64,000 bases of DNA, from NCBI GenBank assembly GCA_937969505.1, contig CALBWA010000005.1, positions 1-64,000 of the forward strand. The letters are read 5' to 3'. Below the pieces are notes generated by a model. That model did not search any database. It was not told where the DNA came from and saw only the letters and a program-made list of their open reading frames with translations. This DNA comes from an uncultured Erythrobacter sp. GTDB lineage: Bacteria; Pseudomonadota; Alphaproteobacteria; Sphingomonadales; Sphingomonadaceae. This document shows, in pieces, positions 3,204-21,536 of the stretch; the stretch's first letter is position 1; each line of letters begins with the position of its first letter. The position numbers and the translations under genes were made by a program.

Positions 3204-3926
3204 TCATTGCGTTGTGTCTTTGCAGTTGTTGCGCATCAAAACTTCGCTCACCAGAGGAGAGGCGGAGGGGTTCTTGATGATCATCGTTTGGGCCGCACCT
3301 CGCAAGACTGAGCAATCAAAATCTGCTCCTGCGCCAATCGCTGAGCTGATGGTCGATGCGAAGATGCTTGGCGGTAAAACAGAGGCTGCCTTCGCCGGAA
3401 AATCATTCTTCCAGCGGGCACCAGCGACGATTTTCGCAAAGCTTTCGCGCGCATCGGGCACGCTCAGGATCGCGGGTGACAGCTCGGCCAAGAGCTCCCG
3501 ATCCCGGCTGAGTGCCCAGAGGGCGGCCAGATGGCGACCAGCTTGTCTTTCATCGCCTGCATTGATTGCCAGTGCCAACATGGCCTGCTGACCATTCAAA
3601 TCGCGCCACCCGCCGCGCGCGGCCAATTGAAGCGAACCGGCAGCATCCAACCTTTGCCCCGAGGCCAATTGGGCACGGGCCAACATGACCAGATTTTCTG
3701 CCGGGATTGGGCGTTGCGAAACCAGTTGCCGTGACAGGCCTGTGGCGCGATCGAGATCGTCCGCCTGAATAGCAGCCTCCGCCAAATGGCTGTGAGCAAA
3801 TCCTGCGAACATGGACGGCACCCAAGGCGCGAGCGCGGGATCGTAACGGGCCTGTCGATCAAGCTGCGCGAGCACGGCGACTGCGCCCAAGCAGACCAGA
3901 AACAAGAACCAACTTAGCTTTCCCAT
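3204..3926 (-). CDS. Membrane-anchored hypothetical protein with TPR-like helical repeats
   Basis: The start was placed at the ATG at 3926, which overlaps the TGA of the upstream gene (TGATG), rather than at an upstream ATG inside that gene. The 240-residue product opens with MGKLSWFLFLVCLGAVAVLA, a single N-terminal membrane or signal-anchor segment. Ala/Leu-rich helical stretches follow (residues about 40-160, for example AENLVMLARAQLASGQRLDA) and resemble tetratricopeptide repeats. The C-terminal part has two Cys residues. Coupling to a Wzy/WaaL-type gene suggests a helper role in polysaccharide assembly. The function is not recognised. Confidence 0.7.
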   Translation of the reverse strand: MGKLSWFLFLVCLGAVAVLAQLDRQARYDPALAPWVPSMFAGFAHSHLAEAAIQADDLDRATGLSRQLVSQRPIPAENLVMLARAQLASGQRLDAAGSLQLAARGGWRDLNGQQAMLALAINAGDERQAGRHLAALWALSRDRELLAELSPAILSVPDARESFAKIVAGARWKNDFPAKAASVLPPSIFASTISSAIGAGADFDCSVLRGAAQTMIIKNPSASPLVSEVLMRNNCKDTTQ

Positions 3927-5239
3927 CAAGTCTCGCTCCGTTGGGAACCACCGCGCATCAGCAGCACAAGGGCGAATGCGGCAATGGCAAGACCCGCCTG
4001 TGACCGCAGCGGGTAGTCGACCAGTGACTGTAGCGCCAAAACCGCCAAAATCATTCCGCCTGACCATGCAACCCATGGTTGAGCAGCATTACGCGCGCGC
4101 CAACCAGCCGTCATGATGAGCACAATCCAGCACAGGATTAGCAAAGCTCCAGCCAGTCCGGCTTCTATCAGCAATTCCAGATAATCATTGTGAGCACGGC
4201 CCGCTCTTTTTGCAGAAAGATTCTCAAGAGATTCGTCGGCTTGGAAAACTTCGTCAAAAGTGCCCATGCCAGCGCCTGCCGGCCAATATTTTTGCGCTGA
4301 ATAGGTCGCGTCCTCCCAGATAAACTCACGTGCTTCATTGCCTGCATCGAAGCGGTCAATGCTGGTTTGCACCCGCGTTCCGTCTCCAGCGATGAGCAGG
4401 GCGCCAACAAGCGCCACTCCGATCAAGGCCGATACAATGGCGTGTTTCCCAAACTTAGCAGGGTTGGAGTGCAGGCGCGGTGAAACAATCCAGCGCCATA
4501 CTATACTGACCAAAGGCAGCAAACTGAGCGCCATGGCGCTGCGCGACTGGGTCAAGAGGATTGCAAGGCACAAAAGGATCCCGGTTACCCAGCGAACGAG
4601 TTGAGATTTCTTGCCTCGTATCGGGCTTGGCAGATGGAGCAGAAGGGTAAGGCAGATCACCAAAAAAACGCCTGCAGAATTGCGGTTCGCAAACGTGCCA
4701 AACAGAACCCCGGGCATGGGGTTTTCCGGATAAGGAATAAGGGCGGAACCATCTGTCAGAACTTGCGGGACGCCGAGCGCAAAATTGACCAGCCCCAGTG
4801 CCACGACAACCCAGCCAGCCGTTACTAATGTGCTCATCGAGTAGGTCCAGCCCAAAGCAAGGATCGCGAGCGGAACGATCAGGCCGATGAGAGCCACCAG
4901 TGTCCGTGCACGATCAAGCGAGAGCGGATGCCATTGTAGAGATCCCAGTGTGGCACGCGCATCAACCGCCAATTCTCGGCCAGGCAGTGTGGCCCACATC
5001 TCAACCGGGAGCGGGATGAGATGGAAGGCGGGCAGTAAGACAGTGGCAATGATCAGCAACCGGATCGCTGGTGGCGCTGTTTTCCAGAATTTGGCAACGG
5101 CTTTGCCATTGAAGGCGAGCACAACAAGTGCGGTTAGCTGAACTGCCAGATTTGCAAAGCCATAGGCCACGCCTCCGCCGCCGATCAGGATGGCGACGGC
5201 AAGGAGAATGAAAAAGCTGGAAGTTTTAGGGGCAGTCAT
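3926..5239 (-). CDS. O-antigen ligase / Wzy-type polymerase family membrane protein
   Basis: The 437-residue polytopic protein has roughly ten to twelve hydrophobic segments. Its large periplasmic loop near residue 345 carries AHNDYLELLIEAG, the conserved His-containing motif of the Wzy_C/WaaL family. Members polymerise lipid-linked repeat units or ligate glycans to an acceptor in the periplasm, and sequence alone does not separate the two. It is translationally coupled to the downstream TPR-like protein. A second member of the family is encoded at 20196-21536, so polymerase and ligase roles may be split between them. Confidence 0.85.
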   Translation of the reverse strand: MTAPKTSSFFILLAVAILIGGGGVAYGFANLAVQLTALVVLAFNGKAVAKFWKTAPPAIRLLIIATVLLPAFHLIPLPVEMWATLPGRELAVDARATLGSLQWHPLSLDRARTLVALIGLIVPLAILALGWTYSMSTLVTAGWVVVALGLVNFALGVPQVLTDGSALIPYPENPMPGVLFGTFANRNSAGVFLVICLTLLLHLPSPIRGKKSQLVRWVTGILLCLAILLTQSRSAMALSLLPLVSIVWRWIVSPRLHSNPAKFGKHAIVSALIGVALVGALLIAGDGTRVQTSIDRFDAGNEAREFIWEDATYSAQKYWPAGAGMGTFDEVFQADESLENLSAKRAGRAHNDYLELLIEAGLAGALLILCWIVLIMTAGWRARNAAQPWVAWSGGMILAVLALQSLVDYPLRSQAGLAIAAFALVLLMRGGSQRSET

Positions 5240-5283: not shown

Positions 5284-5583
5284 TCAGTTTGCGCCATTCG
5301 ACTGATTGCCACCTATGACCGGCCTATCACCGCTTGAACCTCCCGACAGGGTCGCTGCGAAGATGGCCCACAGACCTACGCCACCCAAAAGGTAAAACCA
5401 GACTGGTGCGCCCCCTTCGTCATCGTCTTCATCTTCCATCGGGGAAAATGGAGTGTTGCCAAGCGCAGGAACATAGGAGGTTGAGGTCTCGCTGGCCCGC
5501 GTATTGGCAAGGGCAGGAATTGACGACATTGCTAAGGAAACAGCGGACAAAGCTGCCAAGATCGTGCCCAGATGTGCCATCAC
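5284..5583 (-). CDS. Small secreted or membrane hypothetical protein
   Basis: The 99-residue product has an N-terminal signal-like segment ending near ALANT, a short acidic run (EDEDDDE) near residue 52, one transmembrane segment (VWFYLLGGVGLWAIFAATL) and a Gly/Ser/Asn-rich tail. It precedes the Wzy/WaaL gene by 44 bases on the same strand, so it is likely the first gene of that operon and divergent from the kinase of the RiPP cluster. No family was recognised. The start may be the first or second Met. Confidence 0.6.
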   Translation of the reverse strand: MMAHLGTILAALSAVSLAMSSIPALANTRASETSTSYVPALGNTPFSPMEDEDDDEGGAPVWFYLLGGVGLWAIFAATLSGGSSGDRPVIGGNQSNGAN

Positions 5584-5793: not shown

Positions 5794-6705
5794 ATGTTGG
5801 ATAAATCCTTGCTCATGTCAGCCCAACTAACGAACAGTTTTCCCGGCCCGGCAGAGGCCGGCGCTGCTGCATTGGCGACAATAAGAAAAGCAATGGATGT
5901 CCGGCATGCAGATGCTCAGACAGTCGGCCGTCCACTTGTCGGCGCAGTTCTGCTTGATGACGAGATGATGTCCATGACGGGTAGCGGTTTTGTGTTCCGT
6001 TGCCCTGGAGGCGCACGGTTCCGTTATGAGCTGGGCAAACAATTGATGGCTTTCATTCCTGATGGTGGTGCGGACGAAGCTCGCCTGTTTCAATGGGGCA
6101 GTGTTTTTGGCGCGGTCGCTTGGCTCAACGATTTACTGCCGCTTCATGCGAGCGCAGTCGCTGATAATGATCGGGTGATAGCCTTTACCGGGCAGTCAGG
6201 CGCCGGCAAGTCCACATTGGCAGCTGCGTTGGTTGATGATGGCATGAGGCACGTCTGCGACGACACCTTAATTCTCGCGCCAAGTTGTGAAGGGTTGCTT
6301 GCCATTCCAGATAACAAGCCGATTAAATTATGGGACGATGCTTTTGCGCTCGTTAATGCCAGGCGCGCAGAGGCAGTGGCGTCGGTGCCGGGCAAGCATT
6401 ACGCAAGTGTAGCTCAAATGTGTGCAGAACCACTGCCGTTGACCGATTTGATTTATCTCGAAGCAGGTGAGGGTGCGAGCCTTACGGCCATCACCGGCGG
6501 TGACAAACTGAACCAATTTCCGCAGGCGATGTATCGCAACTCGCTACACTTGGCGCGCGACGATCCGGATCACCACGCGCAACTGATGGTGATGGCAGCC
6601 TCAACTGTGCGGTCCTGGCGTCTCGTCCGGCCTATTGATCCGGTTTCTTTTGATGAAACCACAACTGAAATTGCGAACCTTTTACGATCGCATACGAAGG
6701 CCTGA
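5794..6705 (+). CDS. HprK-like serine kinase of a lasso-peptide-like cluster
   Basis: The 303-residue protein has the C-terminal fold of HPr kinase/phosphorylase: LPLHASAVADNDRVIAFTG leads into a P-loop, GQSGAGKST, near residue 133, followed by HVCDDTLIL. It lacks a recognisable HPr-kinase N-terminal domain. Close relatives in lasso clusters (ThcoK, PadeK) phosphorylate the C-terminal Ser of the precursor peptide. The adjacent candidate precursor ends in Ser, which fits that role. The gene opens the plus-strand cluster. Its start has only a weak ribosome binding site, and the Met at residue 8 is an alternative. The peptide substrate is inference. Confidence 0.85.
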   Translation: MLDKSLLMSAQLTNSFPGPAEAGAAALATIRKAMDVRHADAQTVGRPLVGAVLLDDEMMSMTGSGFVFRCPGGARFRYELGKQLMAFIPDGGADEARLFQWGSVFGAVAWLNDLLPLHASAVADNDRVIAFTGQSGAGKSTLAAALVDDGMRHVCDDTLILAPSCEGLLAIPDNKPIKLWDDAFALVNARRAEAVASVPGKHYASVAQMCAEPLPLTDLIYLEAGEGASLTAITGGDKLNQFPQAMYRNSLHLARDDPDHHAQLMVMAASTVRSWRLVRPIDPVSFDETTTEIANLLRSHTKA

Positions 6706-6818
6706 ACTTGGCGCAGATCAAGGATGAAACTCGGTGCCGACCATTGCTATCTTCACAGCAAATTCATAAAGGGAATGGCAGTATCGAGCCGTGTAAACCA
6801 TCTGTCGGAGCAAAGTCA

Positions 6819-6956
6819 GTGCCTGTTTCCAAATCAAGCAAGCCTCGCAAGACTTGGCGCGCGCCAGTGCTTGAACAGCTGACGATTGACCTTGATGCCA
6901 TTCGTCAGAAGCGAGCCGGCAATACTGATTTCCGTGGAAATGGGGCCGTAAGCTAG
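6819..6956 (+). CDS. Candidate RiPP (lasso-like) precursor peptide, 45 residues
   Basis: The GTG at 6819 was chosen because GGAG at 6807-6810 lies 8 bases upstream and gives a normal precursor length. A longer frame opens at a TTG at 6708 without such support. The leader contains KTWRAPVLEQL, matching the Y/W-x-x-P-x-L motif that PqqD-like proteins bind. The tail is KRAGNTDFRGNGAVS and ends in Ser, as in precursors served by HprK-like kinases. The only acidic residue in the tail is the Asp at 37. That is only five residues from the Ala of AG, so a standard 7-9 residue lasso ring would need a core starting at Arg29-Lys31, and there is no Thr at the usual leader -2 position. The precursor role follows from position and motif. 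Confidence 0.7.
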   Translation: MPVSKSSKPRKTWRAPVLEQLTIDLDAIRQKRAGNTDFRGNGAVS

Positions 6957-7023
6957 GTTCCGTCTAACTGTCGGCCACACCAGTGGCTCGAATGTGTATT
7001 TATAGTGCAGGGATCGACAACAC

Positions 7024-7290
7024 ATGCCCCGCCTGAAAAAAGAGCCGCAGTCTTTTCTTGCCAGTGAAGTTGATGGTGAACTGATATTGGTTCACGGTGA
7101 TACGGGTGGTTTTTTCGCTCTTAAAGATGTGGGATTTGAAATCTGGAAGTCATTCGAGGATGAGGCGGATTTGGAAGAAATCTGCGACAATCTTCAATTG
7201 AGCTATGATGTGCCCCGGCAAGAGTGTGAGGCATCTGTTGAAACTTTTGCCAACCAATTGGTGGGTGCCGGCTTTGCCCGTTGGTGCTGA
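7024..7290 (+). CDS. PqqD-family peptide recognition protein (lasso B1 / RRE)
   Basis: The 88-residue product has the PqqD winged-helix layout: an N-terminal beta hairpin (GELILVHGDTGGFFALKDVG), the helix FEIWKSFEDEADLEEICDNL and a C-terminal helix with EASVETFANQLVGAGF. In lasso systems this stand-alone recognition element binds the precursor leader and presents it to the B2 protease. It sits 67 bases after the candidate precursor and 40 bases before the B2 gene. Confidence 0.88.
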   Translation: MPRLKKEPQSFLASEVDGELILVHGDTGGFFALKDVGFEIWKSFEDEADLEEICDNLQLSYDVPRQECEASVETFANQLVGAGFARWC

Positions 7291-7330
7291 CGAACCAGTC
7301 TGCGGAGAATGCTCCGTCAATACCGGCAAT

Positions 7331-7789
7331 ATGGCTTTGCGCTGGCAGACCATTTGCGCCGTTGTGCTTATTCTCAAGGCCCAGTGCTTGATCCGGTTCG
7401 TTCCGATGGCTCGGTGGCGCGGCAGTCTTGGGAAGCTGGCAGAACCCTCAACCTCCGGCACCGGCGACCAGACCAGCCTGTGCGATCAGAGATTGGCCTC
7501 GGCCTGGTCACGCCGGGTTATGCGGGCGTCCTGTCGATTTCCGATTGAGCCCAAATGCCTCCCGCAAGCCATGGCCGTTCAATGGCTGCTTGCAAAGGCA
7601 CAATTGCCGTCGCGGCTGGTCATTGCAATGGAGCGGCAGGGAAGCACAGCAACGGCCGGGATTGACCAAGCACCGAGCGATGCATTTCACGCCTGGGTTG
7701 AATTGGGCGACCGGATGGTGATTGGTCTTTGTGAACGGCAGAACTATCGACCTGTCCTTGTCTTTTCGCAAGATGATGGTGACGGGTGA
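7331..7789 (+). CDS. Lasso peptide biosynthesis B2 protein (transglutaminase-like leader peptidase)
   Basis: The 152-residue product begins with a hydrophobic helix and RFVPMARWRGSLG, as B2 proteins do. It carries the Cys-His-Asp fold of the family: Cys in PKCLPQAMAVQWLL, His in FHAWVEL and Asp in LGDRMVIG. Family members remove the leader peptide. The ATG at 7331 was chosen because the open frame further upstream runs into the B1 gene and does not resemble the family, but its ribosome binding site is weak. The stop overlaps the cyclase start in a GTGA, so translation is probably coupled. Confidence 0.85.
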   Translation: MALRWQTICAVVLILKAQCLIRFVPMARWRGSLGKLAEPSTSGTGDQTSLCDQRLASAWSRRVMRASCRFPIEPKCLPQAMAVQWLLAKAQLPSRLVIAMERQGSTATAGIDQAPSDAFHAWVELGDRMVIGLCERQNYRPVLVFSQDDGDG

Positions 7790-9777
7790 CTAGGTTGATG
7801 CGCGCGGACCTGCTGATCGCGGGCTGCTTTGAACTTTCAGAAGTCGAGCAGGCATCTCCTGCGCAAATGGCGGCGCACGACCGAGTTGTCGGCACGCTTG
7901 CCCTGGGTAAGGCAGGGCCCATCCGACATGCTAGCTTGGGCGCCAGCTTTCTTGCAGCCCGGTGCGAGAAATCCGCATCTGGGTTGATCGTCAACGCAAC
8001 GACCTCTTCTCCAAAAATTGCCCGTTTCGTCCCGTCCAAGGGCTGCGACGGATCTTACACGCTCCTTGCTGGACAGCTGCAGGATCGCGAAGAATTGTGT
8101 CTTGCGCTGGGGGGCGACACTGGTGCGGATGATGCTGCGCTCTATGCGAAGGCGCATGCCCGCTATGGCGAAAATTGTGATCGCTGGATCAATGGTGATT
8201 ATGCTGTCGTGCAATGGTTTCCAGATGATCGGCGGGTCAGGCTGGCCCGCTCAGCAACCAGCACCCGGCCGCTTCATGTCTGGAGGCACGGCAGCCGTAT
8301 TGTGGTGGGTTCGATTCCTCGCGTACTGTTCGCAGCCGGTCTTGATCCCTGCCTCAATGAAAACCGACTGGGCGATGCCTTACTGCTCAATTATCGCAAC
8401 GGCGGGGCTAGCTGGTTCAAGGGGGCGGGCCGTGTTGCATGCGGCACTTCTCAATCGCACGATCCTTCGGGGGCTCGCACACATATCTTCTGGGCAGCCG
8501 ACAAAGTGCCTCATGTGCGCTTTTCAAACGATGATGACTATGTCGGGGCGGTGGATGAGGCATTTGCCAAGGCCACAGATAATGCTTTTGCTGGCATTGA
8601 GCGTCCCGGGATTGCCCTGTCCGGTGGTTTGGATTCGCAAGCGGTCGCAAGCTATGCCTGCACACAGCGGCCCGATTTTGGCGCGATCGCGACCTTCACA
8701 GCCGTTCCTCAGCCCGGTTGGAGCGCGCCACCAAAGCCTTACTCTTTTGGCGATGAAAGCGCGCATGTGCGCGCTCTGGCGAAGATGTATCCGCAACTGG
8801 ATCCGCACTTTCTGTCAGCTCAGGATCGCTCCTTCGCCGCGGATTTGGATGCGATGCACGTGCTGGGGTCCTGGCCGATGCGTAATGAGAGCAATATGCA
8901 CTGGATCCACGGCATATATAGCGCCGCGAACAATACGAATTGCGATGCGTTGGTCTTTGGCGCTGCGGGTAATACCGGCTTCAGTTATGACGGAGCCACC
9001 GGCTATTCGACCTGGCTCAGAACCGGGCAATGGGGACACCTGGTCCGGGAATTAAAGGCGGCACCTGACGATCGGCCGTTGAGGCGCAAAGCGGTCTCTC
9101 TAAGTGTGATGCCACTTTTGCCGCCAAAATTGCGTCGAACGATCGCCAAGATGCGCGGTAAATACAGCGACCCCATGCAAAGCTGGTGCGCGATCAATCC
9201 AGAATTCGCACGCCGTTCAGGTGCGCTGGACCGCGCTATTAGCAACGGGCATGACTGGGACTTGCACGATGGGGCCAACGCGCGAGCATGGCGAGCGAGC
9301 GTTCTTGCTGACACTTTATCAGAAGGGGCGGAAATTGATCTCGCGCTGCAGCTGCATCATGGAGTGCCGTCGCGCGATCCCACATTGTACAGGCCACTGC
9401 TCGAGCTGTGCATCGGAATCCCCGACGATCAATATCTACGCCTCGGCACAGATCGCTGGCTAGCCCGACGTTTGCTAAAAGATCGTGTTCCGGAGATTGT
9501 CCGGACCGAGCGGCGTTTTGGCCGACAGTCCCCCGATTGGGCTATGCGTTTTACCTCTGATCGCAATGCGATTATCGATGAACTATCAAGTATGACGTCA
9601 GACCCGACCATTTCCAAGGCTATCGACATTGAGCGAATGCTGATCACCATGCGCAGCTGGTCAGGTGAGGAAGACAGCGCCGGGGTCAATAAACTTGCAA
9701 TTCATGCAGGCGTGGGTCGGGCCGTATCTACGGGCCGGTTCGTCCGCTATGTGCAAAAGCGCAATGACCAGCAATAA
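7786..9777 (+). CDS. Asparagine-synthetase-like lasso cyclase (C protein)
   Basis: The 663-residue protein has an N-terminal glutaminase-like domain without the catalytic Cys at position 2. A synthetase domain follows, with the PP-loop GIALSGGLDSQAV near residue 280. Lasso cyclases adenylate an Asp or Glu side chain and form the isopeptide ring; loss of glutaminase activity is normal in this group. The GTG at 7786 sits in a GTGA overlap with the B2 stop, and an ATG at 7798 is an alternative. Ordinary asparagine synthetase is less likely because of the missing Cys and the B1/B2 neighbours. Confidence 0.87.
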   Translation: MTRLMRADLLIAGCFELSEVEQASPAQMAAHDRVVGTLALGKAGPIRHASLGASFLAARCEKSASGLIVNATTSSPKIARFVPSKGCDGSYTLLAGQLQDREELCLALGGDTGADDAALYAKAHARYGENCDRWINGDYAVVQWFPDDRRVRLARSATSTRPLHVWRHGSRIVVGSIPRVLFAAGLDPCLNENRLGDALLLNYRNGGASWFKGAGRVACGTSQSHDPSGARTHIFWAADKVPHVRFSNDDDYVGAVDEAFAKATDNAFAGIERPGIALSGGLDSQAVASYACTQRPDFGAIATFTAVPQPGWSAPPKPYSFGDESAHVRALAKMYPQLDPHFLSAQDRSFAADLDAMHVLGSWPMRNESNMHWIHGIYSAANNTNCDALVFGAAGNTGFSYDGATGYSTWLRTGQWGHLVRELKAAPDDRPLRRKAVSLSVMPLLPPKLRRTIAKMRGKYSDPMQSWCAINPEFARRSGALDRAISNGHDWDLHDGANARAWRASVLADTLSEGAEIDLALQLHHGVPSRDPTLYRPLLELCIGIPDDQYLRLGTDRWLARRLLKDRVPEIVRTERRFGRQSPDWAMRFTSDRNAIIDELSSMTSDPTISKAIDIERMLITMRSWSGEEDSAGVNKLAIHAGVGRAVSTGRFVRYVQKRNDQQ

Positions 9778-11449
9778 GCTTCAGGCCCACTACAACGCCC
9801 TCGGATTTCTGGCTCGCCATGCCGGTTATGCGCGCGTTGCAGGGCTTGCGGTTTTGACTTTTGCGTCCAGCCTGACCGAGGGCATCGGTCTGCTGATGCT
9901 GGTCCCGGTAACGCTTGTTCTTTCAGGGCAATCAGCGCCAGAAACGCTATCCTCATGGCTGCAACCGCTGGCACAACTGCCGCCATCTTTATTGCTTGGC
10001 ACGATCGTATTTCTGGTCGGGCTACGGGCTGTGATCGTCTATATCAGCAATGAAAAGCGGCGCACACTTGCCCTGTCATTGTCCCGGCGTCTGCGAACAC
10101 AAACGCATCAAGCGATTTTGCGAGCAAATTGGCGCTGGCTGAGCCAGCAGAACAGCGCAGACCATGCGGCTCTGATCATGGGTGAGACGGTCAGGGCCGG
10201 CAGTCTGGTCGACCATGCGCTCAGCCTGATTACGAGCACGATCAGCATAGCGGTGTTCCTTTTGGCGGGTGCTCTTCTGTCACCAACGTTGACGGCGATC
10301 ATGATCGTGGCAGGAATCGTGCTGGGCCTTCCGCTGCTGATCATACGTGCAAGCACTTCGGCCAACGCGCAGGCTTACTCCGACGTCTACGGCGAATTAC
10401 AGGGCCTCGTCTCGAACGGATTGTCGCATCTGCGCGGTGCAAGGATTGCCAATGCGACCCATGTTCTGGAGCGGGATTTTGCACGTTATTCTGCACTGTT
10501 GCAGCAACACGAGCAGCATTACTATCGCGCTACTTACCGTGCGCAGGCCATATTTCAGATTGCCGTGGCGGGTTGTCTTGCGGTGGCTGTTTATGCAGCG
10601 CTTTTCTGGGCAGAGGTGGCACTGGTTGTATTCGTGCCCCTGCTTGCCATCGCGATCCGATCAGCGGCCATGCTGCTGCGCGTACAGCAAGCGCTGCACC
10701 AATGGCGGTATGACGTGACCGCGCTCGATCAATTGCGCCAGCTGATTGACATGGCAAAGGCCAATGCAGAGCCTGCTGCGGATCGCGGTGAAGCGATTGA
10801 ATTCAAAAAAGAGCTTGTTTTAGATCATGTGACGTTTGCCTATCCGGGTCGCGACGGACCAGTTTTCACGGACCTGTCCTATCGTATCACCCACGGAGAA
10901 ATCGTCGCAGTGCACGGTGCATCTGGCGCCGGCAAGAGCACTTTGGCCGATCTTGTCTGTGGTCTGCTTGCACCCGACAAGGGCGGATTGGTGATCGATG
11001 AGCGCAGGCTTGATGCTGGCCAGATTATCCAATGGCGGTCGCAAACCGCATATGTCGAACAGGCCGGGTTTTTCTTCGAAGGTACCATTGGTGACAATGT
11101 GCGCTGGGGATTGGAAACTGCCAGCGATGACGATGTCAGAACCGCCTTGAAGGCTGCCTTGGCCCACTTCGTTTTTGAACTTCCTGAAGGCCTCGATAGT
11201 CAGATGGGGGAAGGGGGGCGCCAGTTTTCAGGTGGTGAAAAGCAACGCATCGCGCTTGCCAGAGCATTGCTGCACCAGCCCGATCTGTTGATTTTGGACG
11301 AGGTGACATCCGGCCTTGATGCCCAAAGCAAGGATGGCGTTCACCAATCACTAGAGGCACTCAAGGGGCAATACACGGTGCTATTGCTAAGCCATGATCC
11401 TGCCATGCTGGCCATTGCCGAGCGCACCATCGATCTGGACGCACTGTGA
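9764..11449 (+). CDS. ABC transporter, fused membrane and ATPase domains (peptide exporter, D protein)
   Basis: About six membrane segments fill residues 20-330. The ATPase domain has Walker A GASGAGKST near residue 386, signature FSGGEKQR near 487 and Walker B LLILDEVTSGLD. Half-transporters of this type export lasso peptides and give self-protection. The ATG at 9764 overlaps the cyclase end by 14 bases, and an ATG at 9749 in the same frame is equally possible. The stop overlaps the next GTG in a GTGA. No N-terminal C39 peptidase domain is seen, consistent with leader removal by B2. Confidence 0.88.
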   Translation: MTSNKLQAHYNALGFLARHAGYARVAGLAVLTFASSLTEGIGLLMLVPVTLVLSGQSAPETLSSWLQPLAQLPPSLLLGTIVFLVGLRAVIVYISNEKRRTLALSLSRRLRTQTHQAILRANWRWLSQQNSADHAALIMGETVRAGSLVDHALSLITSTISIAVFLLAGALLSPTLTAIMIVAGIVLGLPLLIIRASTSANAQAYSDVYGELQGLVSNGLSHLRGARIANATHVLERDFARYSALLQQHEQHYYRATYRAQAIFQIAVAGCLAVAVYAALFWAEVALVVFVPLLAIAIRSAAMLLRVQQALHQWRYDVTALDQLRQLIDMAKANAEPAADRGEAIEFKKELVLDHVTFAYPGRDGPVFTDLSYRITHGEIVAVHGASGAGKSTLADLVCGLLAPDKGGLVIDERRLDAGQIIQWRSQTAYVEQAGFFFEGTIGDNVRWGLETASDDDVRTALKAALAHFVFELPEGLDSQMGEGGRQFSGGEKQRIALARALLHQPDLLILDEVTSGLDAQSKDGVHQSLEALKGQYTVLLLSHDPAMLAIAERTIDLDAL

Positions 11450-12708
11450 AACTGCCCGGTCTTTCATCTTCCCCAAATACAGAGCGCACCGGACCGCGTG
11501 GTGCAGCGCAAATTGTATTGCTTGATATTTGCGCAAATCCCGACGCCGATCACAGCTTGGCCTTGCAGAATCTTGGCGAAGTCAGTGCCCGCCGCTTGGC
11601 AAACTATGCGGCCAGCACCCGAACCGCGTCTCTTGTAGCGCGAACTGTGCGCGCAGCATCGCTCGACGAACAATCGCCGCTGTTTCGGCCCTTTGCTAAC
11701 GAGATTGCGCCAACGGCATCAGCGCATGCGGTCGGGGCTTTGGGTCAAGGGCAGGCTGCTGCGCGCACTCTTGCGATATTGGCCGAGCACAGCTTGCATC
11801 CGATTGCCCTCAAGGGACTGTCGCTAGCATTCCGCGATTATCCCGATCCGGCACTGAGGCCCATTCGCGACATAGACCTTCTGCTGGAACCAGAGGGGAC
11901 CTTGGCTGCTGAACGTATTCTGCTTGATCATCCCGATTATAAGCAGCGGTTTGGCGTAGCGAAATATGGCTTGGACTACAGTCACCAATTGCCAGAGATC
12001 GAACATAAGCCGAGCGGTCTTGTGATCGAGCTGCATCACCGGATCAACGCCCGGGATTGGGTGCATGAGCCGGAACTTGTCATCAAGCTGCGTGACGGCG
12101 CACGGCCCTTGGACCTGCTGGGCCAACAGGTTCTTGTACCGGATGCAGAAAGCAATTTTCTGCACTTGATCGAACACGCAACGCTGCATCATCTGTTTGC
12201 AAATGGTCCGCTAATATTGTCTGATTTGCACTATCTAGCGCAAGGCGGTCTGCCGTGCTGGCAAGCTTTGAGGGACGAGGCTTCGCGCTTCGGACTTGGC
12301 AAAGGCCTTGCGCTATTGGCGCAAATCGCCAGCCAGCATGGCGCGCAATGGGTCCCTGAAGGCTGGATAAATGACAACGATATCAACCAAGAACTGGTCG
12401 ATAACGCCTGCCTAGCCATGTTCGAGCGTGGTTCGATCAGACAGAAGGTCGCCATGGCCAATCGGGTTGGCGAAGATGATGGACGCCCGGCGCCAGCCGG
12501 GGCGGCAATTGCGCGAGCTTTGCGGCCAAGCGCCAACCAATTGTCGCGATTGTCTGGGCATCATTCACAAAGCATCTGGCGCTGGCTTGGTTATCCGGCT
12601 TGGCTGATCGAGAAGGGCATGCGCTATCGCGCGCTTCGTTCCGATCCACGGATCGCAAAAGCTGCGGCAGACAGAAGAAAACTGCGCCAATGGCTGGTCG
12701 GCGAATAA
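11446..12708 (+). CDS. Nucleotidyltransferase-family protein (NTP_transf_5 type) of the RiPP cluster
   Basis: The 420-residue protein contains HPIALKGLSLAFRDYPDP followed by RPIRDIDLLLEP near residue 140, the characteristic pair of blocks of this family; the DID carries the metal-binding acids. In the pseudomycoidin lasso cluster a related protein (PsmN) acts with the kinase and adds a sugar to the phosphorylated C-terminal Ser. The same role here is inference. It begins at a GTG overlapping the transporter stop and ends in a TAATG overlap with the flippase gene. Confidence 0.82.
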   Translation: MKLPGLSSSPNTERTGPRGAAQIVLLDICANPDADHSLALQNLGEVSARRLANYAASTRTASLVARTVRAASLDEQSPLFRPFANEIAPTASAHAVGALGQGQAAARTLAILAEHSLHPIALKGLSLAFRDYPDPALRPIRDIDLLLEPEGTLAAERILLDHPDYKQRFGVAKYGLDYSHQLPEIEHKPSGLVIELHHRINARDWVHEPELVIKLRDGARPLDLLGQQVLVPDAESNFLHLIEHATLHHLFANGPLILSDLHYLAQGGLPCWQALRDEASRFGLGKGLALLAQIASQHGAQWVPEGWINDNDINQELVDNACLAMFERGSIRQKVAMANRVGEDDGRPAPAGAAIARALRPSANQLSRLSGHHSQSIWRWLGYPAWLIEKGMRYRALRSDPRIAKAAADRRKLRQWLVGE

Positions 12709-14165
12709 TGGCCTCGCTGCGTAAGTCTCTTGCTCTGTCCAATGTGGCAACTTTCGCCAATCTGTTCATTTCGCTGGGTTTGGTCATTGTCGTCTCGCGT
12801 TTGCTTGAACCGGCGGCAATCGGCGGCTTCCTGATCGCTTACGCGGTCATTATGTTGATCGACCCCATCCGGGAATTCGAGCTTAAATCTTTCGTGATTG
12901 TGGAACCTGACTTCGGGCTCGCTCAGATGCGTTCTGTGCGCATGGTTGCGCTCGGAACTGCAGCTCTGGGCGCGGGCCTTTGTCTTGCCGGTTCTGCCAT
13001 TCTTTACGCCAGCTACGACACCAATCTGCCGGGTCTGTGCCTCTTGATTTTGACTTTAACATTCATTGTCCGGCCAATGACCCAGCCAGCAGAAGCACTT
13101 CTGGCCCGCCAGCTACGATATGGGCCTCTTGCTATCGTGAAGATCACAGCAGCTGTAATTCGTGCCACAGTCACATTGGCCCTTATCTGGCAGGGGATGG
13201 GTGCGGAAGCGCTGGCTATCGGCGTGGTGGCAGAAGTGGTAAGCGAACTTCTTTGCCTCGCCTTTATCGATCGCCGCATGGCGTTTGCTCGGCCCGCCAA
13301 GCGCGGCCTTTCCCATGTGCTGCGTTTCTGCGTGCAATTGACTGGAGCCCAGCTTGCAACACGGCTTGCTGCGGCGCTTGAGCCGCTCATGATTGGCGCC
13401 GTGCAGGGTCTTGCGATGACCGCATTCTACAATCGCGGCAATCGCGTAGTCCGAACTTTCCGTTCTGGAGTTGAGCAAGCCACGTTGCCCATCGCCCTCC
13501 AACATTTTGCCTCGGCCAAAGGGGACAGGGATCAGATCAGAAGGGCCTATGTGCGGGCGATTGCTTTGCTCACTGGATTGTCATGGCCGGTGCTGGGTGT
13601 GTTTATTGTACTCGCCGATGCAGTAATTTTGGTGCTGTTTGGAGATCAGTGGGGGCAAGCAGTGCCATTGGGTCAGATTCTCGCATTGGGAGCGATTGTC
13701 TATGCCGCCTCGGCGCTCAGCCATCAGGTCCATGCTGCCCTCGGCGAAACAGCCTTACTCATGAAGCGCGATGCAGGCCTTGCTATGCTCAGGTTAGTTG
13801 TTCTTGTCGCGACAGTCTTCGTCAGCACTGTTGCTGTGGCCTGGGGACTGGTTGCAGTGATCGCAGTATCTCAAATTGTGCACCTGAAGTTCATGCACCG
13901 TTCGATTGGCTTGACTTTCAGAGAGACAGTCAGTGCCGTTTGGAAAAGCGCGGCGGTGGCTTTGGCCTGCGTTGGCGCAGTTACAGCGGTGCGCTATCTC
14001 GCCGGAGATGGGACGGGTGCGGTAATTCTCGTCATCTTCGCCGCTGCGGCGGCTGGCGTCACTTGGGGCGCTTGTATTGCCCTGTCTGGCCACCCTTTAA
14101 GCCAGGAGATCCGTCAGCTCACCGGGAGCTCAGCTCGCGCTCATACGCAGACAAGCGGCCTTTAG
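12708..14165 (+). CDS. Wzx-like polysaccharide/oligosaccharide flippase
   Basis: The 485-residue polytopic protein has about fourteen hydrophobic segments and the opening FANLFISLGLVIVVSRLLEP typical of the oligosaccharide flippase family (MVF/MATE superfamily). Members move lipid-linked repeat units across the inner membrane. The ATG at 12708 shares a base with the stop of the nucleotidyltransferase gene (TAATG), so it is coupled to the RiPP cluster rather than to the glycosyltransferase operon. Its stop overlaps the convergent methyltransferase-like gene by four bases. It is the only flippase gene seen in the window and so probably serves the surrounding polysaccharide. Confidence 0.85.
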   Translation: MASLRKSLALSNVATFANLFISLGLVIVVSRLLEPAAIGGFLIAYAVIMLIDPIREFELKSFVIVEPDFGLAQMRSVRMVALGTAALGAGLCLAGSAILYASYDTNLPGLCLLILTLTFIVRPMTQPAEALLARQLRYGPLAIVKITAAVIRATVTLALIWQGMGAEALAIGVVAEVVSELLCLAFIDRRMAFARPAKRGLSHVLRFCVQLTGAQLATRLAAALEPLMIGAVQGLAMTAFYNRGNRVVRTFRSGVEQATLPIALQHFASAKGDRDQIRRAYVRAIALLTGLSWPVLGVFIVLADAVILVLFGDQWGQAVPLGQILALGAIVYAASALSHQVHAALGETALLMKRDAGLAMLRLVVLVATVFVSTVAVAWGLVAVIAVSQIVHLKFMHRSIGLTFRETVSAVWKSAAVALACVGAVTAVRYLAGDGTGAVILVIFAAAAAGVTWGACIALSGHPLSQEIRQLTGSSARAHTQTSGL

Positions 14166-15910: not shown

Positions 15911-17983
15911 TTACCGAACGGCACCGGCAGGGGCCGTTGTGCCACGCACATTCCCGCCTTTGTCGAACCCTAAAACCGACTGTTTGGGACTGGTCAGTAG
16001 CCCTCCAGCTGGAGCAAAATTGCCGCCGGCTGCATCAATGAAATTGTCCGCTTTAGTGCCTGAAATCGTTGTTCGCTTCGCTCCTTGCGGGTTGGTGGCC
16101 GCACCGAACAAATGGTTATCGGTAACCTCTAGATCTGAATTGGGCGTGCCGGTCCATTCGATGCCGCGCATCGCATTATTGGCGAGCATGCAATGCTCGT
16201 CTGCGGTGAGGCCTTGAGAAGGTCGGATCAATTGAATTTGATTCGCCAAAGTGTTGTGGGCCACAACCACGTGGCTGCTAGGCTTGGACCATTGGCTGAA
16301 CTGCGACAAAAAATCAGGATTGAGCGCCTCATCTGATTCAGCGGCATTGTTAATGATGAGCAAGTCCTCCATCCCGTCATAGCCGAGGGTTATGGCAGGC
16401 AAAGCATTGCCATAGAACGTATTGCCAAACATGATGCTGTTGGTAGACGATTGCAGGTTGATGGCCCAGATGTCGCCATGGATGTCGAATACGGTGTGAA
16501 GGTCAACTGAGGAAGTTTTCGCATCAATTGCTGAAAATCCTGCTCCGAGCCCGGCTGCATTGGCATGCGACAATGCGCTGGCGCGACGGCTGTCATCGAT
16601 CAAAACCGCTGCCCAACCTGCGTTCGCGTTGATCCAGTCGACAACATTCTGAACGGAATAGTGCGTGTCGGCTTGATAATCGGCAACTTGATTGCCGATC
16701 GTGAATGTCTGATCAGGCAATCCATCTGTTCTCAGCTTCAGCACCCGATTGTTCGCGTCGCTTGACCCGGAAAGCTCAATGGTCGCTGCAGACGCTGCGC
16801 CAGTGTATTGCACACTCAAGGCAGGCAGGGGGGTGCGCCAGTCCACATTATGGGACGAGGTCACGATGTTGCCTACCATGCAGCGTGCATAGGACATCAC
16901 GTCATAGGCCAAATTGTTAAAGAAACAGCCGCGGACCAGCGAAGCGTTAAGGCATGGGTTCTGTATCAACTCGACGGTGCATTCGAGAAAATAGGGATTG
17001 TCTCGGGCAATATAGGGCGTTGGCTTCTGCCCCTTAAGCCACAGTGCACCACGACCTCGCGTATCAGTAAAATTTACCCCTTCGAACACATGCTGCCGGT
17101 TGGCCGGGTTTTCGTGATAGATGTTCCCAATGTTAGCAAAGTCGACGGTTATGTTTCCGCCGCGCAGCCACATCCCGTCGTAACGCCACCGCATTGAAGT
17201 TGAATCGCCTGGAATGTAGGCCGCTTTGGCAATCGTGACCTGGGCTGTGGCTTCCACCGTCGCATAGCCGTCGCCTTGGTAGGCACCATTGATTGGATCG
17301 ATCGTGTAAGTACCTGATTCGGTAATGGTGATCAGAGGATTTTGCGCCGCAAGATTACGGCAGATATTGCCTGCATCCCTCAGGCTTTGATAGCGCTGAT
17401 TGGTGATCTTGGGCTGGGATGGCGCGACTTCGATAAATAGATCATGCGGTGTCCATCCTCCAGCCCCATCATCATAGCGCTGCGGGAAGAAGCTGTATGG
17501 CCCTATCACACGGTTTTGCAGGCTGGGGTTGTCCGGAATTGCCTCAAAAAAAACTTCGAGTTCGCCATTGATGCCTGTGTGTTCAAGCTCAATCCACCAA
17601 CCAAGATAGGATCGCGCGGTACCGTTGACGTCTGTGAACCTGTAAAGGGTTGGCTCGGTGATGGCTTGGACGTTCCCTTCACAATGCACGTCAACTCTTT
17701 CCAGACCTAGTCGGGTGAAGAGCGTCCCACCATCGTTGGCCCCCGCAAGAACGCCAATGATCAACTTGTCAGTAAAATGCTGATTGGGCGGTACCATTAG
17801 TTGTACCGCCGGCTTAGCCATTGTTCGCACTGGGTCAATTGGAGTGCTGGCGAAGCCAGATCCCGCTGTTCCATCCCATACTGATGCCGGTTGGATAACC
17901 GGAATAGATACTTCGGTGCTGCCGCGGTGCGGCGCCCCATAACGATGGTGATGCGGCGTCACGCCGTAACCAAACCCGGGCAT
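15911..17983 (-). CDS. Phage/GTA-type spike protein with right-handed beta-helix
   Basis: The 690-residue protein starts MPGFGYGVTPHHHRYG, a start style common in phage structural proteins, and has no signal peptide. The middle and C-terminal parts (about residues 230-660) are rich in short repeating strands with NN, GN and SxN turns, as in parallel beta-helix tailspikes and pectate-lyase folds. Its ATG shares a base with the stop of the spike-base gene (TAATG), so the two are coupled. In Rhodobacter capsulatus the spike-base homologue (rcc01079) and its neighbour form gene-transfer-agent head spikes that bind capsule. A polysaccharide lyase is the alternative, but the lack of a Sec signal argues against a secreted enzyme. 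Confidence 0.7.
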   Translation of the reverse strand: MPGFGYGVTPHHHRYGAPHRGSTEVSIPVIQPASVWDGTAGSGFASTPIDPVRTMAKPAVQLMVPPNQHFTDKLIIGVLAGANDGGTLFTRLGLERVDVHCEGNVQAITEPTLYRFTDVNGTARSYLGWWIELEHTGINGELEVFFEAIPDNPSLQNRVIGPYSFFPQRYDDGAGGWTPHDLFIEVAPSQPKITNQRYQSLRDAGNICRNLAAQNPLITITESGTYTIDPINGAYQGDGYATVEATAQVTIAKAAYIPGDSTSMRWRYDGMWLRGGNITVDFANIGNIYHENPANRQHVFEGVNFTDTRGRGALWLKGQKPTPYIARDNPYFLECTVELIQNPCLNASLVRGCFFNNLAYDVMSYARCMVGNIVTSSHNVDWRTPLPALSVQYTGAASAATIELSGSSDANNRVLKLRTDGLPDQTFTIGNQVADYQADTHYSVQNVVDWINANAGWAAVLIDDSRRASALSHANAAGLGAGFSAIDAKTSSVDLHTVFDIHGDIWAINLQSSTNSIMFGNTFYGNALPAITLGYDGMEDLLIINNAAESDEALNPDFLSQFSQWSKPSSHVVVAHNTLANQIQLIRPSQGLTADEHCMLANNAMRGIEWTGTPNSDLEVTDNHLFGAATNPQGAKRTTISGTKADNFIDAAGGNFAPAGGLLTSPKQSVLGFDKGGNVRGTTAPAGAVR

Positions 17984-18252
17984 TAGGCTAGGCCGATCAG
18001 GTCAGTGGCCGTAGTGCCATTGGCTCTTACAGCGCTGGCGCGGATGTCGAGGATGTAGCCCGAGGGAACATTGCGAAACACCACATCGGTATCAGCTCGT
18101 GAAGCGCGTACTACTACATCGCCGCCGGTGCCGATGTATAACGCCTTGGTGACCTTGGCGAGTTCTCCATTATCGTCCGGGATAATGTTGAAGCAGTCCT
18201 GTGCAGGGGCAATAGGACTGTCTGATGTTGTGCTGAAGGAATCGGTTGGCAT
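17983..18252 (-). CDS. Spike base protein, RCAP_Rcc01079 family (GTA head spike type)
   Basis: The 89-residue product has the family pattern: DCFNIIPDDNGELAKVTKAL, then YIGTGGDVVVRA, VVFRNVPSGYILDIRASAV and a terminal GTTATDLIGL. This small protein anchors head spikes in the Rhodobacter gene transfer agent and occurs in alphaproteobacterial phages. No capsid, portal or tail genes are nearby. It has its own good ribosome binding site (GGAG 8 bases upstream) and a 112-base gap after the GT2 gene, so it may be expressed apart from the sugar genes. Confidence 0.8.
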   Translation of the reverse strand: MPTDSFSTTSDSPIAPAQDCFNIIPDDNGELAKVTKALYIGTGGDVVVRASRADTDVVFRNVPSGYILDIRASAVRANGTTATDLIGLA

Positions 18253-19315: not shown

Positions 19316-20196
19316 AGTCTCGGTTTCGCTAGCTGAGCTGATCGCGCTCGCACACGTTCAAGCAATTGCGCTCGCACAGGTTCGGCGAGCTTGAGGTTGG
19401 ATTGAATCAGAACAGAACGATGGTCCGCGCGCAGATCGCCCACAAAACGATCTCGTTCGCTTGCGATCTCCAGTTCATATCCCCAGCAAACATGACAATC
19501 GCCTGTCTTGCGATGCACGATCGAACTGCGCTGATCACCGGGCGCCTGATCGCAGAATACGCCGTAATGCAAATACTCGGAAAATCGCCAATGCCTGGCC
19601 AAAGTCTCCGTCCAGCTCTGATTATTGACCTGCTCCAGGCGCTCAATCATCGCGCGAGCAACTGGCGCAGACCAAATTGTGGCGGGGCCGATATAGTCCT
19701 GTCCTTGATAGCCGCTGATTGGCAGGCCAAGATCAATTTGCGCCAAGCGATGCCACTTGGTGTGGCGCTCGCTTTGCCCGCCGCCTGGTGAATGTCGCAG
19801 AACAACCTTATCCCCATCAAATACGTCGTCATAAGCAATCGGTTGAAGCAGGCAAACATCGCTGTCTAGGTGGACAGCAGCATCTTCTTCCATTTGAGCA
19901 ACAAAGGCAATTTTTGCCATTTGCTGATAAATCCACCCGCGGATCAGTCTGGTTCGTCCATCCCACCAAACGCGCTTGCCAATGACGCTGATCTCGCGCA
20001 GCGCTGGCAACAGTTGCGTAACATTGACGATGGTCCGGTGTGGGCTCGTGAAATCGAGAAAAACGGGTTCGTCGGCATCATCCACCAAGACATAGTGGTC
20101 CGTCTCAGGCATGAAGTTATCGATGCTATCGCACAGGTCCATAAAGGCAGCCATGTCGCCTCGGAACGTTTTGGTGACCAGAGCAAAACGATTCAT
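19312..20196 (-). CDS. DUF6492 family, glycosyltransferase-like protein
   Basis: The ATG at 20196 shares a base with the TGA of the upstream gene, giving 294 residues that begin MNRFALVTKTFRGDMAAFMD. The block AAVHLDSDVCLLQPI near residue 105 has a DxD typical of GT-A glycosyltransferases, and SGYQGQDYIGPATIWS follows. The family is annotated only by its domain, so sugar transfer is inferred from the DxD and from the operon context. Confidence 0.75.
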   Translation of the reverse strand: MNRFALVTKTFRGDMAAFMDLCDSIDNFMPETDHYVLVDDADEPVFLDFTSPHRTIVNVTQLLPALREISVIGKRVWWDGRTRLIRGWIYQQMAKIAFVAQMEEDAAVHLDSDVCLLQPIAYDDVFDGDKVVLRHSPGGGQSERHTKWHRLAQIDLGLPISGYQGQDYIGPATIWSAPVARAMIERLEQVNNQSWTETLARHWRFSEYLHYGVFCDQAPGDQRSSIVHRKTGDCHVCWGYELEIASERDRFVGDLRADHRSVLIQSNLKLAEPVRAQLLERVRARSAQLAKPRL

Positions 20197-21536
20197 CAGT
20201 CGGCCCCGGCCCGGGTCGGATTGGCGATCTTCGAGTAAGCTTGTTGTGGAGGCAACAATACAGCAAATTTTGGAGTACCGATGCTGATGGCAGCTCCGCA
20301 TAGCATGTAAGCCCATGCTGCAAGGCCGCCCCAGAAAGCCACACTAAACCCACTGAAAGTGAGGCATACCAGACAGATCGACAGGCCAATCGAAACGTTT
20401 CTCGCCTGGCTGGTTTGCCCTCTGGACCCCCAAAGCAAATAGAGGGCTGCCCCCAGAAAAACGGCGAGGCAACCAATCCCTGCAATCATGCCATAGCGCA
20501 TTGCCCAAAGAAGAAAGTGGGCATCGATTGAAGATGTAATCATAAAAGGGGGGCGGAACCAGTCGCGCAAACCGATACCAAATACCGGATTGGCTAAAGC
20601 CTCGGCCCCGGCATATTCCCAAATTAGCAATCGCCAGTATCCAGAAGCAGGATCAAGGGTGAAACGATAAATTGCAAACGTAAATGGGCCGCTGTCTGAC
20701 ACGACCGATATTGTAACAAAAGCCGTGGTCGCGGCGATAACGGACAGGATGATTATTGGGCCCCTCGAGGCCCGTTGAAACCACAGTATCGTGATCAGGG
20801 CGAGCCCCAGAAGAAAGGTTAGAATAGCGGTGCTGCTGACGGTAAAAATCATGCTGCACGCAGCAAATACGCCCAATATTCTCCATACCATCTTGCGCGC
20901 CGCGAAGATGGCGAGAGGCAGCAATGATGCCAGAAACACTCCTCCTAAAATCGGATGAGGGAAAGGACCTGCAGCGCGGTACAGCCCGAGCCTGGTTTGC
21001 TGATGGATTGCAGGTGGGGGGTTACCGAAGGCTTGTGCCAGGGCAGGCCGCAGCAAGTGCCGCTGGAGCACAGATTCGAGCATCAGCAAGACAGCCAAAC
21101 CGGCAGCCAGAGGCAGAATGGCCCGAACATAGGTTTTGAGATCGCTCGTGTTCCTGATCGAAACCCGGCCAGCAAAATAGGCCAGCCCAAAGTCGATTGC
21201 ATTGGCCAGACCAAATTCCAGGGCTTTGCCGATGGGCTCGTGGACCGAGATCGAAATGGTGAGCCAAACGGACACGAGAACAGCCAACGCATCGACTGGA
21301 TGACCTCTAAGCCGTCCGGAAAAGAAGTTTTGCAATAGCCACGGGATGGATACGAGCAGGCAAAGCCGATAGGGAAACAACGCCGCGCCGGCCAGATTAA
21401 TCGCCAGTTCCTGCGGTAACACGGCAGCATAGGTTACGATGATCGCGGGCCAGAGATGAACCGGAATACTGGTTTTACGGACCTTTGATATCGATGCAGA
21501 AGGCTCTGTGCTGTTCGGATTAGCCAAAGTCGCCAT
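20196..21536 (-). CDS. Second O-antigen ligase / Wzy-like polymerase membrane protein
   Basis: The 446-residue polytopic protein starts at an ATG sharing a base with the upstream stop (TAATG); longer frames run into the GT2 gene. The large loop contains FGIGLRDWFRPP and a conserved His in SSIDAHFLLWAMRYG, the pattern of the WaaL/Wzy family. It lies inside the export and transferase polycistron, which makes repeat-unit polymerisation the more natural role, while the copy at 3926-5239 could be a ligase or a second polymerase. Confidence 0.82.
   Translation of the reverse strand: MATLANPNSTEPSASISKVRKTSIPVHLWPAIIVTYAAVLPQELAINLAGAALFPYRLCLLVSIPWLLQNFFSGRLRGHPVDALAVLVSVWLTISISVHEPIGKALEFGLANAIDFGLAYFAGRVSIRNTSDLKTYVRAILPLAAGLAVLLMLESVLQRHLLRPALAQAFGNPPPAIHQQTRLGLYRAAGPFPHPILGGVFLASLLPLAIFAARKMVWRILGVFAACSMIFTVSSTAILTFLLGLALITILWFQRASRGPIIILSVIAATTAFVTISVVSDSGPFTFAIYRFTLDPASGYWRLLIWEYAGAEALANPVFGIGLRDWFRPPFMITSSIDAHFLLWAMRYGMIAGIGCLAVFLGAALYLLWGSRGQTSQARNVSIGLSICLVCLTFSGFSVAFWGGLAAWAYMLCGAAISIGTPKFAVLLPPQQAYSKIANPTRAGAD

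Follow-up and report, generated by a model that had tools for sequence, protein, structure and literature searches.

The window analysed here is a stretch of 64,000 nucleotides from an uncultured Erythrobacter sp. (contig CALBWA010000005.1; source genome 2.57 Mb in 43 contigs, completeness about 90%). Between positions 5794 and 14165 it holds a lasso-type cassette for a ribosomally synthesized and post-translationally modified peptide (RiPP), which includes a kinase and a nucleotidyltransferase and lies inside a Wzy/Wza/Wzc polysaccharide locus. We scored the cassette proteins with Pfam and NCBIfam profiles against the cut-off of each model. All genes lie on the forward strand. The series opens with a predicted HprK-like peptide Ser kinase (K, 5794-6705; TIGR04352, HprK_rel_A, 55.2 bits, under the cut-off of 200, together with conserved residues), followed by a short precursor (A, 6819-6956, 45 amino acids) and a PqqD-like RiPP recognition element (RRE; B1, 7024-7290; PF05402 58.4 bits, cut-off 23.4; NF033536 49.9, under its cut-off of 80). 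Next come the leader peptidase (B2, 7331-7789, start codon uncertain; PF13471 63.9, cut-off 26; NF033537 58.6, cut-off 33), a predicted asparagine-synthetase-like macrolactam cyclase (C, 7786-9777; PF00733 60.7, cut-off 21) and an ATP-binding cassette (ABC) exporter (D, 9764-11449; PF00005, ABC_tran, 102.6, cut-off 25). The last two genes encode a tailoring enzyme of the NTP_transf_5 nucleotidyltransferase fold, PsmN-like by context (N, 11446-12708; PF14907 114.6, cut-off 31.2), and a Wzx-type flippase (12708-14165; PF13440, Polysacc_synt_3, 134.2, cut-off 23). An earlier note on this DNA had listed the RiPP genes in this order, and all of them are present as claimed.

The overlaps that the note had described between B2 and the flippase gene could be read directly: B2 and cyclase share GTGA at 7786-7789, exporter and nucleotidyltransferase share GTGA at 11446-11449, and the nucleotidyltransferase stop overlaps the flippase start in TAATG at 12706-12710. 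To these we add a 14-base overlap of the cyclase and exporter genes (9764-9777). Consensus promoter and terminator scans of the window gave scores at the level of shuffled sequence, and an Rfam scan of the window found no structured RNA at gathering scores. A recent plasmid import of the window-type cassette was considered and rejected, since a plasmid search (E 1e-30) gave just three distant matches at 26-28% identity.

The precursor matched no family model that we scanned; it is supported by ten relatives that have a counterpart at the matching place, with W..P.L, Ile or Val at -2 and a terminal Ser. Its frame is open from 6669 and a TTG-started open reading frame (ORF) spans 6708-6956; the GTG at 6819 is our guess at the start, made from the lengths of the relatives. 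With this start, the leader would cover 6819-6905 and the predicted core, QKRAGNTDFRGNGAVS, 6906-6953. The [M+H]+ values calculated for this core are 1677.842 for the linear form, 1659.831 once the ring is closed, 1739.797 when a single phosphate is added and 1901.850 when a hexose is added as well. The window precursor has the layout W(-17)xxPxL, I(-2), Asp8 and C-terminal Ser, its core reading QKRAGNTD up to Asp8 and FRGNGAVS thereafter; the conserved Trp is numbered -17 following the YxxPxL numbering of the Bradymonas Bsf cluster (PMC10368454). When precursor features were counted by eye in the window and its ten relatives (n = 11), the terminal Ser and the Ile or Val at -2 were found in all 11, and Asp at core position 8 in ten, G047 having it at position 9. 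Core residue 1 is Gly in three of them (G344, G311 and G227).

Lasso peptides usually have a small residue at core position 1, mostly Gly, although this is not strictly defining. That feature is absent from the window, where residue 1 is Gln; the lasso features present are the [Y/W]xxP leader, a discrete PqqD-type RRE, a transglutaminase-like B2 and Asp or Glu at core positions 7-9. Judged by its residues, the precursor is lasso-type in layout, but its core starts unusually and ends in a short tail with few plugs. Elsewhere in the family, 43 other lasso-like loci (L043, L046, L049, L053-L092) were read, and 38 precursors were typed from 37 of them. All but one of the 38 (37) end in Ser; 28 carry Gln at W+23, which is core position 8, mostly after I/V(-2)A(-1)G1, and 16 of these 28 have no Asp or Glu at core positions 7-9, that is, they belong to a cyclase-bearing family lacking the ring acid.

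The enzymes have kept their conserved residues. Across the 11 members, the kinase has invariant H118, G136, G138, K139, S140, D156 and D157, including a GxSGxGKST P-loop, and the cyclase an invariant SGGxDS; Cys76 and His120 of B2 are invariant in the 10 members carrying it. In the nucleotidyltransferase, K123, G124, R138, D142, D144, H197 and D260 are invariant in 17 sequences, with D142 and D144 forming a DxD motif. Its structure model (pLDDT 88) matches nucleotidyltransferase folds: MenT1 at E 9e-4, with weaker matches to TM1012 (0.05) and FKRP (0.1); FKRP is a nucleotide-dependent alditol-phosphate transferase acting on glycans. The His, the P-loop Lys and the Asp-Asp pair are reported as essential in lasso kinases in a review (PMC9266682).

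The divergent neighbour kept beside the cassette encodes a Wzy_C ligase or polymerase, which we call Wzy1 (3926-5239, reverse strand; PF04932, 64.5 bits). Strong matches to it number 62, in 61 of the 114 genus genomes; this set leaves out the G363 match (181 bits) and everything weaker. Within 30 kb of these 62 loci, B2 is found at 49, an NTP_transf_5 gene at 50 and either of the two at 52, with a median distance between B2 and Wzy1 of about 1.1 kb. The linkage of RiPP genes to the polysaccharide locus, for which the earlier note had proposed a comparison of related genomes, is thus conserved. By contrast with this broad occupancy, the window-type cassette itself is patchy. Homologues of its cyclase (E 1e-20) occur in 58 of 298 family genomes and in 15 of the 114 genus genomes, seven of these 15 being of the window type (the window plus six at 38-61% identity; the remainder at 26-32%), and in another genus two of 11 have a window-type cyclase. 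Each of the nine embedded window-type clusters lies next to this Wzy1 and the spike genes; of the other lasso clusters retrieved in the family, most are found elsewhere.

Linkage goes with the nucleotidyltransferase. Among the matches listed for the genus, at least 56 of 61 B2 genes that have an NTP_transf_5 gene no more than 20 kb away lie near Wzy or Wza, as against at least 3 of 24 B2 genes with none nearby. Outside the Wzy1 slot the counts near glycan genes are at least 9 of 14 with the nucleotidyltransferase and 0 of 21 without it, again among the matches listed, the 21 controls being the 24 minus three near a strong Wzy1. All of these proximity counts are minimum values, for B2 genes with and without the nucleotidyltransferase alike. 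A few fragmentary weak Wzy matches were kept off the marker list. By chance, some 4 of 85 would be expected to lie near such genes if genomes are taken as 3 Mb long. The corresponding p values, 2.4e-12 for the genus-wide link and 2.8e-5 outside the slot, both overstate it because the rows are related genomes. In two genomes, G260 (L145) and G306 (L146), genes for PqqD, a kinase, B2, a cyclase-like protein and NTP_transf_5 are gathered in some 15 kb at a second polysaccharide locus, which is of another kind and includes Wza, Wzc and a distant Wzy.

The same slot houses several cassette types. We fetched ten genus-mates lacking a window-type cyclase, picked for Wzy1 and the spike gene on one contig, and all ten carry a kinase, PqqD, B2, cyclase, ABC exporter and nucleotidyltransferase of another type between these two genes. 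The ten loci also hold a lasso-type precursor, which in nine has Y(-17), T(-2), Gly1 and Asp8. In G401, which typifies this second cassette, the precursor exceeds the NF033521 cut-off, B2 exceeds its cut-off, the NTP_transf_5 protein scores 89 bits, and the cyclase reaches 252 bits with NF033535, under the cut-off of that model. Like the window cassette, the G401 type occupies the slot between Wzy1 and the spike genes and has the same set of enzymes from kinase to NTP_transf_5; it differs by Y(-17) and T(-2), by Gly1-Asp8, by the absence of the C-terminal Ser, by a cyclase distant in the tree and by a PRMT-like methyltransferase, which the scan of the G401 cassette identified and which four of the ten genus-mates read possess. 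G379 (L127/L128) has a third cassette type in the slot, with two precursors close together and T(-2)-like leaders.

In a cyclase tree of 46 rows, 18 of them from the slot (G180 not included), the nine window-type slot rows (support 97/94) stand far from the eight G401-type rows (100/100), with clusters located elsewhere separating the two. The 18 slot rows require three label changes, at least two of which are forced by supported branches. Non-orthologous lasso cassettes have therefore entered the slot on more than one occasion, and what they have in common is the kinase, the RRE, the exporter and the nucleotidyltransferase. We regard this repeated filling as the most telling sign that a function of this kind is selected for at the glycan locus.

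The earlier note had also singled out the flippase gene as translated together with the RiPP genes. The TAATG overlap agrees with this in the window, but the flippase is not a fixed partner. The next gene after the nucleotidyltransferase on the same strand is a glycan gene in all nine embedded window-type clusters: a flippase in four (window, G396, G311 and G356) and a gene of dTDP-rhamnose type in five, namely RmlD by Pfam in G354 and G344, RmlD by phmmer in G227 and G047, and in G316 a gene that is RmlA-like by motif. An obligatory flippase was thus rejected, and its coupling is one version of a wider pattern.

The right-hand flank continues the polysaccharide locus on the other strand. A second Wzy_C (33.4 bits, cut-off 31.7), a GT2 glycosyltransferase, a Wzz/Wzc-type kinase and Wza lie within 20196-25463 (reverse strand), and the series of glycosyltransferases, epimerase and UDP-sugar dehydrogenase extends to 30006; with the flippase, a Wzy-type protein, Wzz/Wzc and Wza, the locus has the features of a Wzx/Wzy locus. 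Beside Wzy1, a small ORF (5284-5583, reverse strand) without a match in family scans is kept in several relatives. The spike genes lie between the cassette and this flank. A homologue of the gene-transfer-agent head spike base Rcc01079 (17983-18252, reverse strand; PDB 6tb9, E 5e-7; phrog_12296, E 3e-18) has as its conserved neighbour a spike fibre-like protein of 690 amino acids (15911-17983, reverse strand), whose beta-rich model (pLDDT 74) gave weak phage baseplate and tailspike matches, none reaching E 0.001. The spike base gene occurs in 60 of the 114 genus genomes, and 50 of the 62 Wzy1 loci have it no more than 30 kb away. PF13547 (GTA_TIM) was found in 0 of the 114, so a standard gene transfer agent is not shown.

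The regular co-location in relatives makes it probable that the peptide acts on the polysaccharide or together with it. We lean, at slightly better than an even chance, towards a lasso-type cassette that makes a pseudomycoidin-like phosphoglycosylated peptide dedicated to the surface polysaccharide. In such a pathway B1 would bind the W(-17)xxPxL leader, the kinase would phosphorylate the C-terminal Ser, as in published relatives, and the NTP_transf_5 enzyme would add a sugar, or a sugar-phosphate or nucleotide, to the Ser phosphate, as reported for PsmN. B2 would cleave after I(-2)R(-1), the cyclase would link Gln1 to Asp8, the ABC protein would export the product to the compartment of glycan assembly, and the peptide might end there on or with the glycan, covalently or functionally, perhaps via its Ser-phosphate-sugar. 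What it does to the glycan we can only infer: it may decorate it, regulate it or travel with it. The most specific version, in which the kinase and nucleotidyltransferase build the peptide into the capsule by joining its C-terminal Ser via phosphate to the polysaccharide or to a lipid-linked repeat-unit sugar, we hold to be unlikely. Since the tail has no bulky plugs, the attached sugar would then also keep the thread from slipping out of the ring. If this version were true, the cells would bear a peptide-studded glycan, and phosphoglycosylated lasso peptides with such nucleotidyltransferases, those of Bacilli included, would be glycan components and not free antimicrobials.

A number of observations weigh against the favoured reading. 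The cassette has no known product, core residue 1 is Gln in five of the 11 precursors (window, G396, G354, G356 and G316), Asn in two (G290 and G228) and Leu in one (G047), and the short tail offers few bulky residues able to hold a thread. The cyclase lies far under the NCBI lasso model NF033535 (109.7 bits, cut-off 525), and G311 (L099) has a window-type cluster without a detected B2, the only PF13471 match of that genome lying about 545 kb away. The genus counts are not phylogenetically independent, and among the matches listed 24 of 85 nucleotidyltransferase genes and 26 of 85 B2 genes, some on short contigs, have no Wzy or Wza within 30 kb. In the two nearest relatives outside the locus, G290 (41% identity in the cyclase) and G228 (37%), the flanks that were fetched revealed no polysaccharide gene, so the chemistry of the cassette does not need that locus. 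Relatives of the kind that the earlier note had named as telling against the link, with RiPP genes apart from any polysaccharide gene in the flanks read, do exist, but the genus-wide linkage stands. Conversely, the glycan locus survives without the cassette. Of the ten Wzy1 loci with neither B2 nor nucleotidyltransferase, seven were read (G367, G375 and G361 being the other three), with presence judged by phmmer using one or a few queries per gene, so that a diverged gene could be missed. G380 (L133, L134) and G386 (L137, L138) have beside Wzy1 a lone cassette-type ABC exporter, seemingly what is left of a lasso cassette since lost; G369 keeps the PqqD gene only, the G384 contig stops beside Wzy1, and G374, G317 and G324 have no cassette gene in the stretch fetched.

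Several of these facts would suit a peptide with a role of its own as an antimicrobial or signal; polysaccharide loci, as recombination hot spots, would merely collect such cargo. The window type is present in just 7 of the 114 genus genomes, the cassette is reduced to its exporter in G380 and G386 and was not found in G374, and different cassettes in one slot could equally reflect hot-spot turnover. Yet mere cargo fits poorly with the occupancy of 52 of the 62 Wzy1 loci, with the tie between the nucleotidyltransferase and glycan genes that extends beyond the slot, and with cassette genes that overlap or abut flippase and RmlD genes, and we regard this explanation as doubtful. Nearly the same must be said of a product that is no lasso at all, which we rate as unlikely. 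With Gln1, the asparagine-synthetase-like enzyme might perform C-terminal amidation or form a nitrile or another lactam, or the phosphopeptide might stay linear, like the linear polyphosphorylated peptides (LPPs) of Bacilli; enzymes of this kind are known to catalyse such reactions (PMC13060819). The low NF033535 score, the Gln1 of the window subclade and the Gln8 precursors elsewhere that lack a ring acid all point that way, against which Gly1...Asp8 is kept in G344, G311 and G227 of the same clade, Asp8 is present in all but one of the precursors, and the Ile(-2) leader matches a partly characterised kinase-bearing lasso cluster (PMC10368454).

The spike genes suggest a further alternative, in which the glycan serves phages or gene-transfer particles as a receptor and the peptide, instead of being built in, controls or shields it; the spike genes would then mark a receptor locus. 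The frequency of the head-spike base homologue and its proximity to Wzy1 agree with this, as does Rhodobacter capsulatus, where the capsule interacts with the spikes and the genes for the two are neighbours (PMC10218006). Without GTA_TIM in any genus genome, and with the spike base gene also present in the G374 locus, where no lasso cassette was found, we consider this alternative quite improbable.

For the dedicated phosphoglycosylated peptide that we favour, one of the closest known parallels is the pseudomycoidin (psm) cluster of Bacillus pseudomycoides. There PsmK puts a phosphate on the C-terminal Ser, and the addition of one or two hexoses to it requires PsmN, although nucleotidylation followed by the action of a host glycosyltransferase is also possible (PMC9266682, PMC8498205). 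Both clusters have a kinase and a nucleotidyltransferase beside the lasso genes and a C-terminal Ser as the site, or predicted site, of modification; the window differs in being alphaproteobacterial, in I(-2), W(-17) and Gln1, in its fixed slot at a polysaccharide locus and in the glycan gene directly downstream. The earlier note had cited paeninodin and pseudomycoidin as examples of lasso clusters accompanied by such enzymes. The pseudomycoidin-like gene features, a kinase with His-Lys-Asp-Asp, a nucleotidyltransferase gene and the C-terminal Ser, are all found here, but membership of the paeninodin family is rejected by the features tested: it needs Thr(-2) and Trp(-15) (PMC13381572, PMC10368454), whereas the window has Ile(-2) and Trp(-17), and the Bacillus-type PqqD model NF033536 stays under its cut-off. 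An HPr-rel-A system was likewise rejected, TIGR04352 (55.2 against 200) and TIGR04353 (17.3 against 35) both falling short. The window also resembles the Bsf cluster of Bradymonas sediminis, which has a kinase, a nucleotidyltransferase, YxxPxL at -17 to -12, Ile(-2) and Asp8 but differs by Gly1, a kinase site at Ser3, a C-terminal Asp, and FG-GAP and ribosomal protein genes as borders; the authors of that work note Ile or Val at -2 in Sphingomonadales (PMC10368454).

In genomic setting, the cassette resembles the paeninodin-like lasso and LPP clusters of Bacilli, which have a kinase, an NTP transferase, an RRE and an MsbA-like exporter and in many cases share their place with loci for capsular polysaccharide (Popov et al. 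2026, PMC13381572). The paeninodin type has Trp at -15, and LPPs use a signal-peptidase-like enzyme and have no cyclase; the window has B2 and a cyclase, belongs to another phylum, and occupies a genus-wide slot that receives non-orthologous cassettes. The LPP class (LppS, no cyclase) was rejected for the window, where no peptidase besides B2 was identified among the cassette genes scanned. In the literature searched, which most subscription papers lay beyond, we found no report of an association between lasso cassettes and polysaccharide loci in Alphaproteobacteria. An Erythrobacter pan-genome study predicts lasso clusters and, separately, exopolysaccharide genes, and in its accessible part the two are not joined (PMC9723273); in the accessible text of a Sphingomonas exopolysaccharide study (PMC11340318), a term search found none of PqqD, lasso, asparagine synth, HPr, nucleotidyltransferase or peptide. 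The principle of co-location is thus already known in Bacilli (PMC13381572), and as far as our searches show, the alphaproteobacterial system, its fixed slot by the spike genes, the repeated filling of that slot and the nucleotidyltransferase rule are new. Paeninodins and LPPs are described as restricted to Bacillota and their role as unknown (PMC13381572). The genus-wide, slot-specific tie, with a nucleotidyltransferase marking the tied cassettes, bears on what phosphorylated and glycosylated lasso peptides do, and finding this kind of association in two phyla speaks for a common function.

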